NCBI GenBank assembly: GCA_017347445.1
Contig: AP021856.1
Span: 1,496,613-1,560,612, forward strand
Length of the DNA stretch: 64,000 nt
Direction: 5' to 3'
From: Candidatus Brocadia pituitae
GTDB lineage: Bacteria; Planctomycetota; Brocadiia; Brocadiales; Brocadiaceae
Both the position numbers and the translations under genes were made by a program. How positions within the stretch are numbered: the first letter of the stretch is position 1; every line of letters starts with the position of its first letter. The notes under the pieces were generated by a model. The model was not told the origin of the DNA. It searched no databases and saw only the letters and a program-made list of their open reading frames with translations. This document shows positions 12,735 through 43,013 of the stretch, piece by piece.

Positions 12735-14846
12735 ATGGTAACTACAAAATCAATCAGGTATGTATTGCCTTTTGTGTGTATTTTGTTCATTGCTACGGTG
12801 TCTGGCACATTTGCCAATGAGGTGCATGGAAATAAGATTCTGGGACACAATCTGGAGATTGAACTTTTTTTGAAAGAACACAAGATAAAGGCGGTCGATC
12901 ATGTGCGTGTTCAAGGTGAGGACAAGGAAAAGTTTTCGTGTTTCATCAACGGAGGATTCCAAATTCTGTCCGTTGGCGTTTTAAACAGAAAGTTAGCTTT
13001 CAAGACTACAGCACACGGAGACTGGCAGCGTTTGGAAATTACCATGCCGTCAGACCTGAGGCAAGCGGATGACGTAGTGCTGGATGTTGCATACGAAGGG
13101 GTTCTTTTTGGAAAGCCTGCCTCCCTGGAGTTGGAGGACGTTGGCGAAACGACTGGCATTATTGATGAGGCGGGGGTGTACCTGAGTCCTGCATGCGCGT
13201 GGTATCCGGATGTCCTTGGCTCTCTGTCGTCTTTTCAGGTGACGGTTGTTACGCCCGCAGGATACGAGGCTGTGACACTTGGCGCCCTGGTGAGCAGGAA
13301 AGTGGTTGGCGATAAGATATATGTTACGTGGGAAGAAAAGAATGTGTCAGAGGGATGTGACCTTGTGGCCGGGAAATATCAGATAACTCAGCTCAAACAT
13401 CAGGATATCGATGTTTATGCCTTCTTTTTCCCAGAGGATCAAGGTTTGGTGGATACCTATCTGAAGGCCACGACACGGTATCTGGATATGTACCAAAAGC
13501 TCCTGGGAGATTATCCGTACAGAAAGTTTGCCATTGTGGAAAATTTCTTTCAGACAGGATATGGAATGCCTTCATTTACCTTGCTGGGGAATACCGTGGT
13601 TAAAATGCCTTTTATTGTGGATACTTCGCTGGGACATGAGATTTTACATAACTGGTGGGGTAACTCGGTCTTTGTGGAAGAATCTCAGGGGAATTGGTGT
13701 GAAGGATTGACCACCTATATGGCGGACTATTATTATAAGGAACTCAAGGATAGCGACTCGGCAGTGGAGTATCGCAGTGATATTTGCAGAAAATACACCA
13801 ATTACGTCACGAAAAAGAACGATTTTCCTTTAAAAAATTTTATTGGCAGAAGAGATCAGACGACCCGGGCTATCGGATATGGGAAGACAGCCATGGTATT
13901 CCATATGCTCAGACGAATGGTTGGAGATGAGGTGTTTTATACATCCCTGCGAAGGTTTTATAAAGAAAAGATATGGCAGCGAGCGGGCTGGAAAGATATC
14001 CAATATGTATTTGAAGATACCAGCAAGATGAACTTGTCCTGGTTTTTTGAACAATGGATTCAGCGGGAGGGAGCTCCTTTTCTGGTATTGGGTAAAACGG
14101 AGGTTGAAAAAAACAAAGACGGCTGGGTTACCACGGTGGAGGTCATTCAAAAAGACAAAGGGTATCGCTTCTCCTTGCCTGTCCAACTGGAACTTGACGA
14201 AGGGGCATGTACTACGATTGCGGAATTAAAGGAACAGTCACAATTCATTTCCATTCAGACAAAATCTGAACCGCGTGCTGTTGAGATAGATCCACATTAT
14301 GAGGTATTCAGACGTCTCCATCTGGAAGAAATTCCTCCAACCATAGATTTTGTCCTGGGAGACGAAGAAAAGCTTATTGTGTATCCGACAAGCGGTGAAC
14401 GCGCTTCACAAGAGGCATATAAGAATCTTGCAGCATCTCTGTCGTCCAAAAAGGACGATATAAAGTCGGATGCTGAGATTACGGAAGCAGAAATAGCTCA
14501 AAAAAGCCTGTTCATATTGGGTGGGCTGACAGAAAACAAACTTGCGAAAATACTCACGGACCAGTTGCCAGCGGATTTTTCGCTTGGAGAAGGGTCGTTT
14601 GTAGTGAACAAAGTAAGGTATCAGGAGAAAGGCAACGCCATTCTCGTAAGTGCCAGAAACGCCAAGAACAGGTCAAAAGGAATCGTGTTGTTTGCCGGCC
14701 TTAGTGCAGATGCGATTAAAAGTACCGGATTTAAAATCCCTCATTATGGAAAGTATAGTTATCTTGCCTTTGCTGATAGTAAGAACATCGATAAGGGAAT
14801 ATATGCTGTAACGGGTAGTCCGCTTCGGAGGTCTTTGAGTAAATAG
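12735..14846 (+). CDS. Exported M1-family-like aminopeptidase
   Basis: A 703-residue protein with a strong Shine-Dalgarno (GAAGGAG) and a signal peptide ending near TFANE (residue 30). The zinc site is HEILHNWWGN (H301, E302, H305), with the third ligand probably E323 in WCEGLTTY. The spacing of 17 residues after the second His is slightly shorter than in classic M1 enzymes. Residues 1-200 form the N-terminal beta domain. After about residue 530 a C-terminal domain with LGDEEKLIVYPTSGE is present that I do not recognise. It is a periplasmic metallopeptidase, perhaps for nutrient or protein turnover. It follows mod by 14 bases, but its export signal and composition mark it as a separate functional unit. 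Confidence 0.83.
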   Translation: MVTTKSIRYVLPFVCILFIATVSGTFANEVHGNKILGHNLEIELFLKEHKIKAVDHVRVQGEDKEKFSCFINGGFQILSVGVLNRKLAFKTTAHGDWQRLEITMPSDLRQADDVVLDVAYEGVLFGKPASLELEDVGETTGIIDEAGVYLSPACAWYPDVLGSLSSFQVTVVTPAGYEAVTLGALVSRKVVGDKIYVTWEEKNVSEGCDLVAGKYQITQLKHQDIDVYAFFFPEDQGLVDTYLKATTRYLDMYQKLLGDYPYRKFAIVENFFQTGYGMPSFTLLGNTVVKMPFIVDTSLGHEILHNWWGNSVFVEESQGNWCEGLTTYMADYYYKELKDSDSAVEYRSDICRKYTNYVTKKNDFPLKNFIGRRDQTTRAIGYGKTAMVFHMLRRMVGDEVFYTSLRRFYKEKIWQRAGWKDIQYVFEDTSKMNLSWFFEQWIQREGAPFLVLGKTEVEKNKDGWVTTVEVIQKDKGYRFSLPVQLELDEGACTTIAELKEQSQFISIQTKSEPRAVEIDPHYEVFRRLHLEEIPPTIDFVLGDEEKLIVYPTSGERASQEAYKNLAASLSSKKDDIKSDAEITEAEIAQKSLFILGGLTENKLAKILTDQLPADFSLGEGSFVVNKVRYQEKGNAILVSARNAKNRSKGIVLFAGLSADAIKSTGFKIPHYGKYSYLAFADSKNIDKGIYAVTGSPLRRSLSK

Positions 14847-15097
14847 GCACATTTCCTCAGAGAAAATCATTCATGTTGTGGCAAACAGCATTATATTATG
14901 AAAACATCATTTCATTCGTGAAATTTTACAGAAAATATACTTCAGGAGAAATGCACGGGAATATGAATATTTAAGTATTATTAAAACTTATAACTTAGAA
15001 GATATTTTCATATTTTTGTATTTTTATTTTAGGTAGGAACAGTTTTTGTCACGTGTCTGTAGGCATTATTATTGGAAGGAGGGAAAAATTGTAAATT

Positions 15098-15835
15098 ATG
15101 AAACTGATATACGTACTTAGTGTCCTTTTTGCATTTTTATGTTGTAATTTAATATCTTCAAAGGATATACTAGCAGATAGCAAATATTCTGAGACAGAAG
15201 TTCCAGATGGTGGTACTATTATTGGCAATGTTAAATACATGGGTGAGTTGGCTGCTGTAGGATTAAATCTCTATCGTGATTGGGAATTATCAGATACATC
15301 GAAAACCACTTCTGAAAAGCTTATCTGCAGCAAGGTAAATAGCGGGTTAAAAAACGCCGTTGTTTCCCTCAAGGATATTACTCAGGGGAAAAAAAAGATA
15401 ATACCTGCGATCCATCCGATAATCGACCAGCAAAACAATTATTTCATTCCTCATGTAATTGCGATTGTGTCAGGCACAACCGTTGATTTCTTAAATGGCG
15501 ATGAGCAGATGCATAATATTCATACCAGGTCAACAAGAAACCAGCCTTTCAATTTTGGCACTACGTACAAACAAAGAATTTCAAAAAAATTCGATTACCC
15601 GGAGATCATCAAGATAACGTGCGACCTTCATAAAAATGCATATGCATGGATTGTCGTTCTTGATCACCCTTATTTTGATGCGACAGACAGAAACGGCTAT
15701 TTTGAAATTTGTGATATCCCGCCCGGAACCTATACATTCCAGGTATGGCATGAAGAATTAGGAACTTTAGAAAAGGAGGTAACGGTACATCCGAAAGAAA
15801 CTACGACGATAGAGTTTGTTTATTCACAGAATTAG
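15098..15835 (+). CDS. Exported cupredoxin-like protein with carboxypeptidase-regulatory-type C-terminal segment
   Basis: A 245-residue protein with a signal peptide (about residues 1-27) and a Shine-Dalgarno GGAGGG 18-23 bases upstream. The copper-site pattern is H139 and H142 in EQMHNIHTRS, then C175 and H178 in TCDLHKNAYAW. Relatives usually have CDxHxWM, the Met being the axial ligand; here that position is KN, so the Met is absent. A later segment YFEICDIPPGTYTFQVWHEELG is a carboxypeptidase-regulatory-like beta sandwich. It is expected in the periplasm or anammoxosome as an electron carrier or copper-binding accessory. It lies 79 bases upstream of the diheme cytochrome and octaheme genes, so it probably shares their transcript. 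Confidence 0.78.
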   Translation: MKLIYVLSVLFAFLCCNLISSKDILADSKYSETEVPDGGTIIGNVKYMGELAAVGLNLYRDWELSDTSKTTSEKLICSKVNSGLKNAVVSLKDITQGKKKIIPAIHPIIDQQNNYFIPHVIAIVSGTTVDFLNGDEQMHNIHTRSTRNQPFNFGTTYKQRISKKFDYPEIIKITCDLHKNAYAWIVVLDHPYFDATDRNGYFEICDIPPGTYTFQVWHEELGTLEKEVTVHPKETTTIEFVYSQN

Positions 15836-15914
15836 CAATGAAAAAGATGCAGGTGTTAATGAGGATAATGTGTTTGAGTATCTACAATGGCAATCGGAAA
15901 GGAGGATAGGCGAT

Positions 15915-16697
15915 ATGAAACCTAAGGTCTTATTGAATAAGGTTAGCTTTTGGTGTGTTACGGCGGTAACAAGCGCAGCGCTGATGCAGAGTATAGCGCC
16001 GGTAACTGCCAACGAAGTTAAGATACCGACAGAGGTTACCGATTTAGGTAAGGATACCTATAAAAAGTATTGTAGCCCCTGTCATGGCGAAGAGGGTAAG
16101 GGAGACGGGCCTGTTGCAAGGTCGATGCTTCCTAAACCGCGTGATTTTACCCGAGGTGCTTATAAATTCAGAACAACTCCGAGTGGTTCACTTCCAACAG
16201 ATGAGGATATCTACCGTACGGTTTCTTTTGGGGTTCCGAATTCTACGATGATTCCGTGGGACATTTTGACGGAAGAACAACGGGCGTCGGTAATTCCTGT
16301 CCTGAAGAGTTTTTCTGAGGCGTTTGAAGTCAGGAAACCTGACGCACCCGTAGAAGTTGGTTTACGGGTTAGACCTACGGAAAAATGTCTTGCAGAGGGG
16401 AAAAAGATTTATGAAGAAAAACTGGAGTGCTGGAAGTGTCATGGCATTGAAGGACGCGGAGATGGTCCCAGCGCTGCTGAGCAGGAAGATGATTTTGGTT
16501 TTCCGATAAAACCCTTTGATTTTACTACAGGAAAATTTAAGGGAGGCAATTCACCTCAGGATGTTTACCTCAGATTTACCACAGGGTTGAACGGTACTCC
16601 CATGCCATCGTTTGCGAAGGAGCTTACTGACGAAGAAAGATGGTGTTTGACGTATTATGTAATGTCACTCATTAAACCAGAAGAAACGAAAAAATAG
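15915..16697 (+). CDS. Exported diheme cytochrome c, partner of the octaheme protein (kustc0457-like)
   Basis: A 260-residue protein starting MKPKVLLNK at 15915, chosen because GGAGG lies 10-14 bases upstream; an in-frame start at 15816 would overlap the cupredoxin gene and lacks a signal peptide at its N terminus. It has a signal peptide (to about residue 32) and two haem motifs, CSPCH (C53) and CWKCH (C172), each followed by GxxGKGDGP or GxxGRGDGP as in class I cytochromes c. Duplicated single-haem domains make up the whole protein. In Kuenenia a diheme protein and an HAO-like octaheme protein encoded side by side form a 60-haem complex. The same gene order here supports an equivalent complex, with this subunit passing electrons to the octaheme site. 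Confidence 0.85.
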   Translation: MKPKVLLNKVSFWCVTAVTSAALMQSIAPVTANEVKIPTEVTDLGKDTYKKYCSPCHGEEGKGDGPVARSMLPKPRDFTRGAYKFRTTPSGSLPTDEDIYRTVSFGVPNSTMIPWDILTEEQRASVIPVLKSFSEAFEVRKPDAPVEVGLRVRPTEKCLAEGKKIYEEKLECWKCHGIEGRGDGPSAAEQEDDFGFPIKPFDFTTGKFKGGNSPQDVYLRFTTGLNGTPMPSFAKELTDEERWCLTYYVMSLIKPEETKK

Positions 16698-16728
16698 ATA
16701 GCATCTAATACCTATGGAGGTGAATGAA

Positions 16729-18339
16729 ATGAAAAAATTTGGAATAGGGTTGTGTTTGTCTGCGATGCTGTTTACTTCTGCGGCGTGGGCAGCCGAACTA
16801 CCACCCAAGAAGGAAACGCCACCAGATCTGTATGAGGGGACGCCCGACTGGTATAGGGCGACTTATAAAGATAACGTTGGACTCCGCGAGGGTTCAGGAC
16901 CATTTAAAGATTATTTCAAACCACAGATGTTGGATATGTACTGGCAGCCCAACCGCCACTATGAACCCATGAAGAACCTGGATCATTCTATCTTTATTGA
17001 AAAAGAAAGAAGGGATCTGTGTATAACATGTCACGAAGAAGCAACCCCGGGCGTTGTGAGAGATTGGAGAGGTTCCGGCCATAAGAATCCCAAGAGCACT
17101 CCCTATCTGTCTGCAAGAACGTCCGAAATTGAAAAACGCACCAACAGGATTTTAAATGAAGTTGATTGTTTCGATTGTCATGCTGACACGAAAAAGAAAC
17201 AGATCAGGATGCCAACCGGCGAGGTGTGCGGTGAATGCCACAGGCCGCAGTTTGATGACTTTCTGCGCGAGAGAGAAATGGGACGTCCCAACCACATCCA
17301 GTCGTGGGAGGCAAATACGATCGTGCCGTGGTATGCAGAGGCTGCGCGAAGAGGGTATTTATATGGGCAGCACGGTTGTGATTTGTGCCATTCCGGTGCC
17401 GAAAAATGCGATGTATGTCATACCCGGCATAAGTTCAGCGCCGCCGAAGGCAGACAGCCAGAGGCCTGTATTACCTGTCATATGGGGCCTGACCATCCTG
17501 ATGCTGAGTCCTATGGTGAGTCAAAGCATGGCGTAATCTATCATAAGGAAGAAGAGCATTTTGATTTCAACCGGCCATTATCTGAAGTAAGACCCGGAAA
17601 GGACTATCGCACCCCAACATGTCAGTTCTGCCACATGTATGAAAAGCATGGCAGGTTTATTCACAATCCGGTTATGAAGGGTATCTGGCGTATGGGTACG
17701 ATACCGCCGAAGAACCTGGAATATACTTCTTCCTTGAAGGATTATCCTTACGGCATTAAGATTATTGGTGATAAAATCGATATCTATTCGGAAGAAAACA
17801 TTGCCAAGAGGTCATATTGGTTAGAGGTCTGCGCCAAATGCCATAGCGACCGTTTTGCCGATACCTATTTGAAATCATTGGATGAGTTCATGTTTCAGGC
17901 TCATACCTTGGCAGACAGGGCTCAGAAGATTGTTGAAGACTTAATTGCCGACGGTTACCTCTATCCCAGCGCTGCGGACAGGGATCCGTATCCTTTAAGC
18001 GACGGGATTGAAAAGCAGCTGAGTCCGGCATTTCTCGGTGAACCTATTTATAACGCCTTTAAGACTTTGAAGGGCAAATTCCCGGTAGTGGGGCCAATTC
18101 TTGGTGTGTATGGTATGTTCATACAGCAGCAAGACAATCCGTCCAATATCGAGAATATGTACAATCGGTTATGGTTCTGGTATAAACTTCAGGGCTACAA
18201 AGGTACTGCACATGTCCAGCAGGACGTATCCTGGTGGTGGGGTCAGGCGCCTATGATGATGGAGTTTACGAAGATTCAGTCAGAGGCAGCAAGGCTGCGC
18301 AGGGAAGGACGTATTGAGAAGGTGACTCTGACAAAATAG
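16729..18339 (+). CDS. HAO-family octaheme cytochrome, probable reductase type (kustc0458-like)
   Basis: A 536-residue protein from MKKFGIGLCLSAML (16729); a GGAGGTG Shine-Dalgarno precedes it. The signal peptide ends near AWAAE (residue 22). Eight CxxCH motifs run from CITCH (C98) to CAKCH (C368), with the tight pair CDLCH/CDVCH in the middle, as in the HAO fold. In the C-terminal region where oxidising HAOs carry the haem-crosslinked tyrosine, this protein reads YKGTAHVQQDVSWWWGQ, unlike YKGMAHGSWNDATYSDG of the second HAO at 41256. This fits the proposed nitrite- or NO-reducing branch, but activity is inference. It is co-transcribed with the diheme gene 31 bases upstream and ends at the terminator at 18381. 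Confidence 0.87.
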   Translation: MKKFGIGLCLSAMLFTSAAWAAELPPKKETPPDLYEGTPDWYRATYKDNVGLREGSGPFKDYFKPQMLDMYWQPNRHYEPMKNLDHSIFIEKERRDLCITCHEEATPGVVRDWRGSGHKNPKSTPYLSARTSEIEKRTNRILNEVDCFDCHADTKKKQIRMPTGEVCGECHRPQFDDFLREREMGRPNHIQSWEANTIVPWYAEAARRGYLYGQHGCDLCHSGAEKCDVCHTRHKFSAAEGRQPEACITCHMGPDHPDAESYGESKHGVIYHKEEEHFDFNRPLSEVRPGKDYRTPTCQFCHMYEKHGRFIHNPVMKGIWRMGTIPPKNLEYTSSLKDYPYGIKIIGDKIDIYSEENIAKRSYWLEVCAKCHSDRFADTYLKSLDEFMFQAHTLADRAQKIVEDLIADGYLYPSAADRDPYPLSDGIEKQLSPAFLGEPIYNAFKTLKGKFPVVGPILGVYGMFIQQQDNPSNIENMYNRLWFWYKLQGYKGTAHVQQDVSWWWGQAPMMMEFTKIQSEAARLRREGRIEKVTLTK

Positions 18340-18380
18340 CAATTGTAGAGCATTTGTAAAAAGATAAGACAGATTAGTAA

Positions 18381-18416
18381 AAAAAGCCCATGATGTTGTT
18401 CGTCATGGGCTTTTTT
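18381..18416. terminator. Two-sided intrinsic terminator
   Basis: Stem GCCCATGA (18386-18393) pairs with TCATGGGC (18403-18410) around a 9-base loop, flanked by an A-run on the left and TTTTTT on the right. It can therefore stop transcription from both directions: the octaheme operon from the left and hemC from the right. It sits 42 bases after the octaheme stop codon and 66 bases before the hemC stop. Confidence 0.85.
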
Positions 18417-18482: not shown

Positions 18483-19439
18483 TTATATTTGATCGACACG
18501 TGCCTGAAATTCCTGGCGGATTTCATGGAGAATCCGCTTGCCGCCACTTTCCAGCATTCTTTCGGCAAGTTCTTCTCCCAGCTTTGCAGCTTGAGTGGAA
18601 TGGCCGCTGTGACTGTCCCTGATGGCATGACCACCGTCCACGGTACAAATGATCGCCTCAAGGAATACTTGATTGTTTTGTATTTGTGCATATGCCCCAA
18701 TGGGCACCTGACAGCCGCCTTGCAGTTTCGCCAGAAGAGCCCGTTCTGCCTCTATGGCAATTCTGGTCTGTGTATCGTTAAGAGCAGAAACGATTTTCAG
18801 AACTCGTTCGTCATCTTTTCGGATTTCAATACACAGTGAACCCTGTCCTACTGCAGGAAGCATAATATCGAACGGTATAATCTGGCTAATCGGTCCCGCA
18901 TAGCCCATTCTTCGTAATCCTGCGTGGGCAACAACAATCGCATCCAGGTCGTCCGTTTCAAGTTTTTTGAGCCGGGTATCCAAATTACCCCGTAGATCCA
19001 AGATTTTGAAATCAGGCCTGAAAGCTAGTAATTGTGCCCTTCTTCGAAGGCTGCTGGTGCCAATACGCGCATTATCCGGCAGCTTTTCTAAATTGGCATT
19101 GTTGTTACTAATAAGGGCGTCATGGGGGTCTTCACGCGTGGGTGTTGTGCCGATCATTAACCCTTCGTGCAGCTCTGTTGGTACGTCTTTGGCGCTGTGG
19201 ACGGCAAGGTCAATCTTGCTCCTCATTAGCGCTGTTTCAAGCTCCTTGGTAAAGAGACCGACTCCCCCTAAACGCGATAGGGGGGCATCGGTGATCTTGT
19301 CACCTTTGGTAGAAATTTTTTCGATCTGAAATTCATATCCGGGATTTAACCTTTTGAGCTCTGATATGACCCAATTTGTTTGGATAAGCGCAAGTTTACT
19401 GCCCCTGGAACCTACGATAATCTGTTTTTCCTTTGCCAA
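18483..19439 (-). CDS. hemC: Porphobilinogen deaminase (hydroxymethylbilane synthase)
   Basis: A 318-residue protein on the reverse strand with the complete HemC signature. VGSRGSKLALIQT is at the N terminus, VHSAKDVPT in the active-site region, GTSSLRRRAQL as the substrate-binding arginines, and LQGGCQVPIGAY carries the cysteine that holds the dipyrromethane cofactor. It polymerises four porphobilinogens to hydroxymethylbilane for haem and sirohaem synthesis in the cytoplasm. Length is normal. Convergent placement next to a multihaem operon makes biological sense for an organism with very high haem demand, but the genes are on opposite strands and share only the terminator. No other haem gene is adjacent. 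Confidence 0.95.
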   Translation of the reverse strand: MAKEKQIIVGSRGSKLALIQTNWVISELKRLNPGYEFQIEKISTKGDKITDAPLSRLGGVGLFTKELETALMRSKIDLAVHSAKDVPTELHEGLMIGTTPTREDPHDALISNNNANLEKLPDNARIGTSSLRRRAQLLAFRPDFKILDLRGNLDTRLKKLETDDLDAIVVAHAGLRRMGYAGPISQIIPFDIMLPAVGQGSLCIEIRKDDERVLKIVSALNDTQTRIAIEAERALLAKLQGGCQVPIGAYAQIQNNQVFLEAIICTVDGGHAIRDSHSGHSTQAAKLGEELAERMLESGGKRILHEIRQEFQARVDQI

Positions 19440-41255: not shown

Positions 41256-43013
41256 ATGGGTAAATTTTTGAAAGTAACATTAGCGTCGGTTATAGGTTTT
41301 GGTGCCATGGGTGTGGCAGCCAGCCTGATGACAAAAGAGGTAAAGGCCGTAGAAATTATCACTCACTGGGTACCGCACGAAGTATATGGACAGATAGGCG
41401 AACCGGATAACAACGGTAAGGTGTTTTTCTCTGGTTTAGGTGCAAAATATATGGGATATCCTAAGGACTCAGGTGCACCGCCTTATCCAGGGAAATACAG
41501 CAAATTCTGGAAGACGTTGCCTGCATACCGTTATTACATTCCTGACTATATGTACAACAGGGATGAGGTAAGGCCTTCGAACCCGATTAAGGGTACGTTC
41601 CAGTTAGAGCAGTGTATTGCCTGTCACTCAGTTATGACCCCTGGCATTGTAAGGGATTATAAGAAGAGTGCGCATTCAAGGGCAGAACCGAGCCCAACGG
41701 GTTGTGATACCTGTCATGGCAACAATCACCAGAAGTTGACCATGCCGTCGTCGAAGGCTTGCGGTACAAGCGAGTGCCACGAGACGCAGTATTCGGAGCA
41801 GGGTCAGGGAGGTATCGGTTCACATGCATCCTGTTCAAGCTTTGCGCAGGTAGAATGTGCATGGTCAATTGAAAGACCGCCGGGAGACACGGCTGGTTGT
41901 ACGTTCTGTCACACCAGTCCGGAAGAAAGGTGCAGCACTTGTCACCAGAGGCATCAGTTTGATCCGAAGGTTGCAAGGAAGTCAGAACAGTGCAAGACAT
42001 GTCACTGGGGTAAAGACCATAGGGATTGGGAGGCATATGATATTGGTCTTCATGGTACGGTATACCAGGTGAACAAGTGGGACCCCAAGCAGTTTGACTG
42101 GGATAAGAAGTTGGCCGATGCAGATTATGTAGGCCCGACCTGCCAGTATTGCCACATGAGGGGCGGTCATCATAACGTGCAGAGGTTTAGCACGGTGTAT
42201 GCCAGTATGGGTATGTCGATGGCCGATCGTGGAGCGCCGATATGGAAAGAGAAGAGAGATCGTTGGGCATCGGTGTGCGATGATTGTCATTCACCAAGAT
42301 TTGCGAAGGAGAACCTGCAGGCAATGGATGAATCGGTTAAGGATGCCGGTTTGAAGTATCGTGAGACCTTCAAGATAGCCGCAGACCTTGTTAAGGATGG
42401 TGTTGCTGATCCCATGCCAAAAGATTTGTGTCCTGACTGGTCAGGTCAGCATATCTGGAGTTTGAAGATAGGCGCATATCATGATGATCCGGCATTTGGT
42501 GGTAAGGCTGGTGAGTCAGGTGAGTTCAGGATGTCGAACTGCACGGATATTGAAAGGTTGTGCTTTGAGAGCGTTGGATATTTCCAGACATACATCTACA
42601 AAGGTATGGCGCATGGTTCATGGAACGATGCTACATACTCTGATGGTTCGTTCGGTATGGATCGTTGGTTGGTCAACGTGAAGCAGGACGCTTCTCAGGC
42701 AAGGAGACTTGCCGCCCTTGAGAAGAAGGTTGGCATTACCTGGGTTCCGGAGAGTTTCTGGAAGACGGGCGAATGGCTTGATCAGTTGACGGGTCCGTAC
42801 ATCGTGAAGAATCACCCTGGAAAGACGATATTCGATCTGTGTCCTGACCCAGGTTGGTTAGATACGCACCATGCACCTGCTGAGGAAGTTGAGTACATCA
42901 ACAGGAAGATAAAAGAACTCGGCTGGGCGGCCGGTTTTGAGCATAAACTTGAACACCATGATTCGGGACATGATCCTGCAGCAAGGTCGCAGAGATTATC
43001 ACCACACGAATAA
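41256..43013 (+). CDS. Octaheme hydrazine dehydrogenase / hydroxylamine oxidase-type protein (HAO family)
   Basis: A 585-residue protein from MGKFLKVTLASVIG at 41256, with AAAGGAGGA upstream. It has a signal peptide (cleavage about residue 32, after VKAVE). Eight haem motifs: CIACH (C120), CDTCH, an atypical CGTSECH (C169, CX4CH), CTFCH, CSTCH, CKTCH, CQYCH and CDDCH (C341). The C-terminal region has YIYKGMAHGSWNDATYSDG (Y446-Y461), where the tyrosine cross-linked to the catalytic haem of oxidising HAOs is expected. This fits the anammox hydrazine dehydrogenase or hydroxylamine oxidase group, which act as trimer assemblies in the anammoxosome; I cannot decide between them. It ends at a terminator and faces a sigma-54 activator. 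Confidence 0.88.
   Translation: MGKFLKVTLASVIGFGAMGVAASLMTKEVKAVEIITHWVPHEVYGQIGEPDNNGKVFFSGLGAKYMGYPKDSGAPPYPGKYSKFWKTLPAYRYYIPDYMYNRDEVRPSNPIKGTFQLEQCIACHSVMTPGIVRDYKKSAHSRAEPSPTGCDTCHGNNHQKLTMPSSKACGTSECHETQYSEQGQGGIGSHASCSSFAQVECAWSIERPPGDTAGCTFCHTSPEERCSTCHQRHQFDPKVARKSEQCKTCHWGKDHRDWEAYDIGLHGTVYQVNKWDPKQFDWDKKLADADYVGPTCQYCHMRGGHHNVQRFSTVYASMGMSMADRGAPIWKEKRDRWASVCDDCHSPRFAKENLQAMDESVKDAGLKYRETFKIAADLVKDGVADPMPKDLCPDWSGQHIWSLKIGAYHDDPAFGGKAGESGEFRMSNCTDIERLCFESVGYFQTYIYKGMAHGSWNDATYSDGSFGMDRWLVNVKQDASQARRLAALEKKVGITWVPESFWKTGEWLDQLTGPYIVKNHPGKTIFDLCPDPGWLDTHHAPAEEVEYINRKIKELGWAAGFEHKLEHHDSGHDPAARSQRLSPHE

Follow-up and report, generated by a model that had tools for sequence, protein, structure and literature searches.

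What becomes of a copper-type protein whose metal site has lost its axial methionine, and what does such a protein do directly ahead of a pair of multihaem cytochromes? The question is raised by a locus of Candidatus Brocadia pituitae that lies within a stretch of 64,000 nucleotides (nt), here called the window, which covers positions 1,496,613 to 1,560,612 of the 4,075,302-base single-contig genome. There, a gene for a cupredoxin-like protein, whose nearest named relatives in our tree are from Brocadia, precedes the genes for a diheme cytochrome c and an octaheme HAO-like protein, HAOr. We conclude that its product probably functions, but with an altered metal site, and that the label of an ordinary 'blue copper' protein given to its kind is probably not apt. 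Our preferred reading, in which our confidence is evenly balanced, is that of a functional, probably exported cupredoxin of the HAOr operon, which would serve HAOr as a copper protein with three ligands or with an open site. The gene and the residues on which the argument turns are located in the window as follows, with conservation counts for Brocadiaceae copies and aligned rows as defined below.

15098–15835, + strand: gene of the cupredoxin-like protein, 245 amino acids
15512–15514, + strand: codon of H139, kept in 28/28 copies and 22/22 rows
15521–15523, + strand: codon of H142, kept in 28/28 copies and 22/22 rows
15620–15631, + strand: ligand loop C175-D-L-H178, with Cys, Asp and the second His in 28/28 and 22/22
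15635–15643, + strand: N180-A181-Y182, replacing Trp-Met-Ser/Thr
15710–15712, + strand: codon of C205, a Cys that marks the Met-less clade

A genome search provided 28 copies of the protein from the Brocadiaceae, the main anammox family: the one of the own genome and one each from 27 other genomes. A separate genome scan provided 80 loci, and 49 of these together with the window make up the alignment and the tree (22 Met-less and 28 Met-bearing rows); the 31 loci outside the alignment are redundant, truncated, frameshifted or without a plus-strand match to an open reading frame. Because the patterns of the scan include CD[ILV]H, conservation of the ligands was counted on the copies from the genome search, while the count of Met covers all 80 scan loci.

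The expected motif C-D-x-H-x-W-M reads C175-D-L-H178-K179-N180-A181-Y182 in the window. H139, H142, C175 and H178 are located where an earlier note on this DNA had put them, and the Met is absent as it had said; its statement that 'KN' stands in its stead is off by one, the Trp and Met places being occupied by Asn-Ala (180–181). All 28 Brocadiaceae copies retain the four residues and lack the Met. In the 80-locus scan, Met is found at C+6 in each of the 58 other loci and in none of the 22 loci of the clade, which are the Brocadiaceae neighbours of HAOr. Throughout the 28 copies and 22 rows the place of Trp is taken by K, N, H, Y, E, S, R, D, Q or G, and that of Met by S, A, T or a deletion only. 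Position 180 ranks fifth in variability among the 216 mature positions of the 22 rows. In the same rows C175-D176, H178-K179 and A183-W184 are invariant; beyond them, K179 is replaced by Arg at locus L029 and A183 by Cys at L036. The loss is fixed in the clade (28/28; 22/22), while position 180 varies next to invariant H178, K179, A183 and W184. As judged from these sequences, it is therefore a property of the whole Brocadiaceae clade and beyond chance.

Type-1 blue copper proteins such as plastocyanin and azurin are characterized by a beta-sandwich, a His2-Cys ligand set with an axial Met (or Gln), a blue band near 600 nm and narrow hyperfine splitting in electron paramagnetic resonance. The protein of the window has two His and one Cys in the spacing H...C-x2-H (H139, C175 and H178 in 28/28 copies), and a cupredoxin beta-sandwich is present in its predicted model. 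It lacks an axial Met or Gln, having Ala181 here and A, S, T or a gap in 22/22 rows. Red copper nitrosocyanin has its second His about eight residues after the Cys, plus a Glu ligand; a site of this kind was rejected, as residues 176–184 read DLHKNAYAW, without a His about eight residues after the Cys.

The cupredoxin domain comprises approximately residues 102–188 and is followed by a CarboxypepD_reg-like domain at 194–241 (PF13620, 33.9 bits; cut-off 32.3). The cupredoxin part of the 245 residues went unrecognised in the Pfam search. The predicted model, with a mean pLDDT of 85.7, shows its fold clearly. In Foldseek and VIA-align, model residues from about 102 to 188 match plastocyanins, amicyanins, 5fc9 and a domain of NirK; the best 25 VIA rows have Z values of 12.0–13.2 and root-mean-square deviations of 1.6–2.4 Å over 81–95 aligned residues. 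The N-terminus is hydrophobic and signal-like, with a helix at residues 2–16 of the model, and export of the protein is probable.

The tree was built with the two motif residues masked. All 22 Met-less rows form one clade with support of 100/100, whose sister (96/87) is locus L119 of another anammox family, a gene that reads CDVHKWM and likewise lies directly before a diheme-octaheme pair. By itself the tree cannot separate gain from loss of Met, but a single loss is favoured because all 58 other loci have it. Thus, the sequences suggest that Trp-Met was lost once, on the Brocadiaceae stem and after the gene already adjoined the pair; regain is seen in no copy. In genome G034 of family f3, Met-bearing cupredoxins are located on both sides of a diheme-octaheme pair (L076, 8023–8784 and 11584–12348 = L119).

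Median ratios of nonsynonymous to synonymous substitution rates (dN/dS) are 0.136 for the cupredoxin (97 pairs, dS under 1.5), 0.07 for the diheme protein (119 pairs), 0.027 for the octaheme protein (36 pairs) and 0.139 for the neighbouring peptidase M1-like gene (43 pairs). By this measure on sequence, the cupredoxin is fast-evolving yet under purifying selection, and a pseudogene was rejected on the same ratio. Suspected internal stops in orthologues were dismissed as well: those of L035, L036 and L039 are the normal C-terminal stop, and L022 and L034 have none in the aligned part. In the copy of B. carolinensis (G007/L037 = L112) the reading frame shifts at a stretch of A residues near position 1540 of L037, possibly through a sequencing error.

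The remainder of the operon and its surroundings are arranged as follows.

15816–16697, + strand: open reading frame beginning with TTG, diheme cytochrome c, 6h5l_B orthologue of kustc0457 type; probable true start ATG at 15915 behind GGAGG, 260 amino acids
16714–18339, + strand: open reading frame of the octaheme HAO-like protein HAOr, 6h5l_A orthologue of kustc0458 type; probable start at 16729 behind GGAGGTG
18380–18416, + strand: terminator hairpin of 16 pairs with U-run, separating the octaheme gene from the convergent hemC
12735–14846, + strand: peptidase M1-like gene, upstream context outside the operon
18483–19439, − strand: hemC (hydroxymethylbilane synthase), convergent neighbour, context

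The octaheme and diheme proteins match chains A (1090 bits) and B (440 bits) of the 60-haem Kuenenia complex 6h5l nearly over their full length, so the pair consists of orthologues of the HAOr (kustc0457-kustc0458) complex. The earlier note had identified the pair in this way and had described three genes in one direction with short gaps and one terminator at their end, a layout that we can confirm. All three are on the + strand with spacers of 79 and 31 nt, assuming starts at 15915 and 16729, and the hairpin at 18380–18416 is strong (−27.7 kcal/mol, z −4.7, equalled by 0/200 shuffles). A simple scan detected no + strand terminator-like site between the genes of the trio, a scan that also missed the hairpin at 18380–18416. 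We regard the cupredoxin gene as the first of the HAOr operon in Brocadiaceae, and the three genes are likely to be cotranscribed. Two further HAO-like copies, at 41613–42404 of the window and at 863575–864366 of the genome, have identical scores of 115.8 bits, which suggests a recent duplication.

How constant this arrangement is was surveyed in 33 Brocadiaceae genomes. A close octaheme orthologue (84–100% identity) is present in 27 and a close cupredoxin in 28. Both genes are adjacent and on the same strand in 26/27 genomes, and in G024 they are found at two contig ends; in G030 the cupredoxin and a fragment of the diheme gene lie at a contig end (L102). Neither orthologue is present in five genomes (G016, G017, G020, G031 and G032), of which G016, G017 and G020 are uninformative and G016, G017 and G032 merely 58–85% complete (G032, 58%). 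The M1 and hemC genes of G032 are about 445 nt apart with no trio between them (L179); in G031, other genes come after the M1 gene. Both the trio and the M1 gene are missing from G020, a single contig of 4.4 Mb with the same genus code as G025 and G028. The diheme start follows the last codon of the cupredoxin after 73–98 nt in 22/22 Brocadiaceae loci and after 173 nt in L119, distances that are extrapolated from tblastn ends.

The arrangement is different in family f4, presumably Scalindua. Octaheme orthologues of f4 are 58–62% identical, and no cupredoxin is located upstream of the diheme-octaheme pair in any of the seven loci of this family that have more than 900 nt of upstream sequence (L072, L073, L075, L077, L078, L079 and L091). 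A diverged cupredoxin at this place was rejected, since the upstream open reading frames encode PAS-domain proteins (L072, L073 and L079), a formate/nitrite transporter (L091, 92–970; PF01226, 216 bits) and HisF (L078); none of those upstream of the pair in L075 and L077 matches the cupredoxin. The earlier note had proposed a dedicated partner and had named orthologous pairs without this neighbour as the finding that would speak against it. Such pairs exist in 7/7 Scalindua-family cases, and the proposal stands within the Brocadiaceae, where it agrees with adjacency in 26/27 genomes, a constant spacer and conserved upstream elements before the cupredoxin.

Part of this picture was known from Kuenenia. 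Papers are cited here by their PMC numbers. The gene kustc0456 likewise adjoins kustc0457-kustc0458, and a role as redox partner has already been proposed for it (PMC12053348, citing Kartal 2013); under hydrazine, KsCSTR_49510 (kustc0456) was reported to be down-regulated together with kustc0457 (PMC12053348). In print kustc0456 is labelled a type-1 blue copper protein, whereas the 28 copies and that of Kuenenia hertensis (L109) are without the axial Met, a comparison made by label only. In the parts of the literature searched we found no mention of the loss of axial Met in proteins of kustc0456 type or of its fixation in Brocadiaceae, a scope that does not extend to Kartal 2013, Dietl 2019, Ferousi 2021 and Hosseinzadeh 2016. 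Gene order and the redox-partner idea have thus been published for kustc0456.

Taking these data together, we propose that an ancestral protein whose type-1 site was of the ordinary kind (His, Cys, His, Met) would have lost its Trp-Met pair once, on the Brocadiaceae stem. Retention of a metal is favoured because three ligands are kept under purifying selection, and copper would most likely still be bound via H139, C175 and H178, with the axial place empty, water-filled or occupied by another residue. The absence of Met and Trp points to an altered potential, to opening of the site or to a different docking face. A missing Met is also found in 5fc9, the best single-domain cupredoxin of the profile search, with Arg at that place. 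The protein may thus contact the diheme/HAOr complex and exchange electrons with it at a shifted potential.

Several observations weigh against this proposal. Among the solved structures matched in the profile search, the top-scoring cupredoxin domain is 9cck_A, in which Trp-Met is retained. No chain of 6h5l occurs among the cupredoxin's three weak PDB matches, and this complex was therefore apparently seen without it. Since 7/7 Scalindua-family pairs lack the cupredoxin, it is not an obligatory partner of the pair. The stem of the Met-less clade is long (0.97), and dN/dS of the cupredoxin is five times that of HAOr (0.136 versus 0.027) and about that of the M1 neighbour (0.139). The second sphere appears to be relaxed as well, because N140 beside the ligand H139 is Thr in 12/22 rows. 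Finally, C205 is present in 22/22 Met-less and 0/28 Met-bearing rows, and C175 and C205 are the sole conserved cysteines, which makes it possible that a disulfide between them blocks copper; in a further copy of the clade, L036, such a bond is disfavoured because Ser replaces C205.

Some of these changes, namely the joint loss of Trp and Met, the exchange of N140 for Thr in 12/22 rows and the new Cys205, would also suit a non-copper or metal-free subunit with a structural, chaperone or regulatory task, in which the fold was kept and electron transfer was given up along with the Trp-Met docking patch. We consider this unlikely, though serious enough to be weighed: Cys175, H139, H142 and H178 are invariant in 28/28 copies, which is unexpected in a protein without a metal or thiol function.

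It is tempting to speculate that the protein, if it binds copper in an open site, handles nitric oxide (NO) or nitrite itself, buffering, scavenging or delivering it beside HAOr. The model for such a function is the purple cupredoxin Nmar1307 of Nitrosopumilus (5fc9), the best single-domain cupredoxin in the profile search and a top match by fold. Like the protein of the window, it has a cupredoxin fold, lacks the axial Met (Trp-Arg stands at the Trp-Met places, Arg replacing Met) and comes from an organism of the nitrogen cycle. Unlike it, Nmar1307 is archaeal, consists of a single domain and keeps the Trp, and the two losses of Met were probably independent. Nmar_1307 is cited as oxidising NO to nitrite (PMC6790972), and the title of a paper describes the purple cupredoxin 5fc9 as having 'an open binding site'. 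An open site of this type has water at the copper and no axial ligand from the protein; the Met is absent in the protein of the window too. The confinement of position 181 to A, S, T or a deletion in 22 rows and 28 copies would leave a coordination position vacant, and HAOr has been proposed as an enzyme that converts nitrite to NO (PMC12485887, PMC6423088). However, a small axial residue could also be left behind by relaxed selection, the Trp lost here is kept in 5fc9, and it is contested whether HAOr reduces nitrite (PMC11897245). We regard a direct action on NO or nitrite, the boldest of the alternatives, as improbable.

Very little can be said for a third possibility, that the ligand role of Met has passed to Tyr182 (C-D-x-H-K-x-[AST]-Y). 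Tyr is found there in 20/22 clade rows as against Ser or Thr in 23/28 Met-bearing rows, and a one-residue deletion in Kuenenia-type copies sets Tyr at the old place of Met (CDIHKEYAW; L109, L111); the position is Asn in L094 and Cys in L095, however, and the loop varies in length among copies. Least credible of all is a passenger gene functionally unlinked to HAOr, for although Scalindua-family pairs do without the cupredoxin and the M1 peptidase is a conserved upstream neighbour too, the upstream elements are conserved before the cupredoxin, its spacer to the diheme gene is short and constant, and in the Brocadiaceae genomes seen it occurs where HAOr occurs and is missing where HAOr is missing.

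The preferred reading, a cupredoxin serving HAOr, leads on to the control of the operon. Two elements are located upstream of the cupredoxin gene.

14909–14924, + strand: palindrome ATTTCATTCGTGAAAT, candidate upstream activator site
15036–15050, + strand: sigma-54-like element GGAACAGTTTTTGTC (GG-N10-GT)

In the window alone each of them is weak as a sequence signal. The palindrome has one exact match there (0.15 expected with one mismatch allowed; a match in 13/100 shuffles), the sigma-54-like element is matched in 6/100 shuffles, and GGAACNNTTTTTGTC occurs exactly once in the own genome, as it did in the backwards control. Compared across loci, the palindrome TTTCAT-N2/3-TGAAA is found upstream of the cupredoxin in 22/22 Brocadiaceae cases, and GGAA[CT]-N7-G follows 124–126 or 134–135 nt beyond it in 21/22, L107 reading GGTAC. 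The sigma-54 consensus has GC at −12; this position reads GT or GA across the loci, and GT in the window. RpoN is encoded in the own genome, and the pair of elements resembles, at the level of sequence, a sigma-54 promoter with its upstream activator site. Sigma-70 promoters were rejected, 10 being detected against 12.1 expected.

The same pair of elements stands before another cupredoxin. Paralogues of related sequence are encoded at both ends of an NXR-type cluster of the own genome (1799115, 42%; 1817502, 36%), and the first of these shares the upstream architecture of the HAOr operon. Both keep Met at C+6 (CDVHKWM, CNVHSEM), unlike the protein of the window. The cluster encodes alpha, beta, heme b and chaperone proteins of the type II DMSO-reductase family, which score below curated cut-offs. 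It was taken as NXR on account of this set and because the ends of the published Kuenenia nxr cluster, given as kustd1699–kustd1713 (PMC6423088), correspond to kustd1699 and kustd1713, both of which are named blue copper proteins (PMC11897245). On this sequence evidence its identity as NXR is likely. A position of paralogue 1817502 between NXR alpha and beta was rejected, since the next open reading frame is Dxr and the beta-type and heme-b-type genes lie on the other side.

Nine of 17 further Brocadiaceae NXR-type loci have the pair as well (L115, L116, L118, L120, L124, L125, L126, L131 and L136), so that, with the own genome, its strict form is found in 10/18, at spacings of 124–125 or 133–137 nt, two classes that differ by about one helical turn. 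The strict palindrome was not found in 8/17 Brocadiaceae NXR-type loci (L129 offering 18 nt of upstream sequence) and 4/4 Scalindua ones. An example of the pair at an NXR-type cluster is L086, 8755–8902. In 1.26 Mb scanned there were 62 matches, which include the same places several times: 50 precede a Met-less cupredoxin as defined by its motif and 11 the NXR-type one, and the last is L029, also Met-less with the loop CDIHRSS. These figures come from a pattern tuned on the very sequences in which it was counted. The cupredoxins of the HAOr and NXR-type loci are paralogues, and gene and promoter may have been duplicated together. No palindrome-promoter match was obtained in the reversed sequence and four simulated sequences, in nine own-genome stretches around other HAO-like genes, or in eight Scalindua-family diheme upstream regions and the 286 nt before L119.

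The shared upstream architecture would place the HAOr and NXR-type operons in a single regulon, which agrees with the joint down-regulation of HAOr and NXR under NO feeding in Kuenenia (PMC6423088). Whether the NO used by anammox is supplied by HAOr acting as nitrite reductase is a matter of dispute in the literature. An HAOr-enriched fraction was 125 times more active than the protein purified earlier, for which the isolation procedure was suggested as the cause and the presence of NirS in the fraction was noted (PMC12485887), and HAOr fractions of another group had no discernible activity (PMC11897245). In the own genome, no match to NirK exceeds the cut-off and only two cytochrome d1-like matches do so narrowly (26.8 versus 25.5 bits), which makes HAOr a leading nitrite reductase candidate here.

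For such experiments, a conserved neighbour with a non-standard metal site, hitherto labelled an ordinary blue copper protein, is a concrete component to add back to HAOr. A far-reaching version of this idea would have the cupredoxin converted to an open site that binds NO or nitrite or tunes HAOr, driven together with the NXR cluster from one enhancer-dependent type of promoter, and lost on purification; as a whole we think it rather improbable. If it were true, loss of the open-site cupredoxin during purification would help to explain the spread of two orders of magnitude in the nitrite-reductase activities of HAOr.

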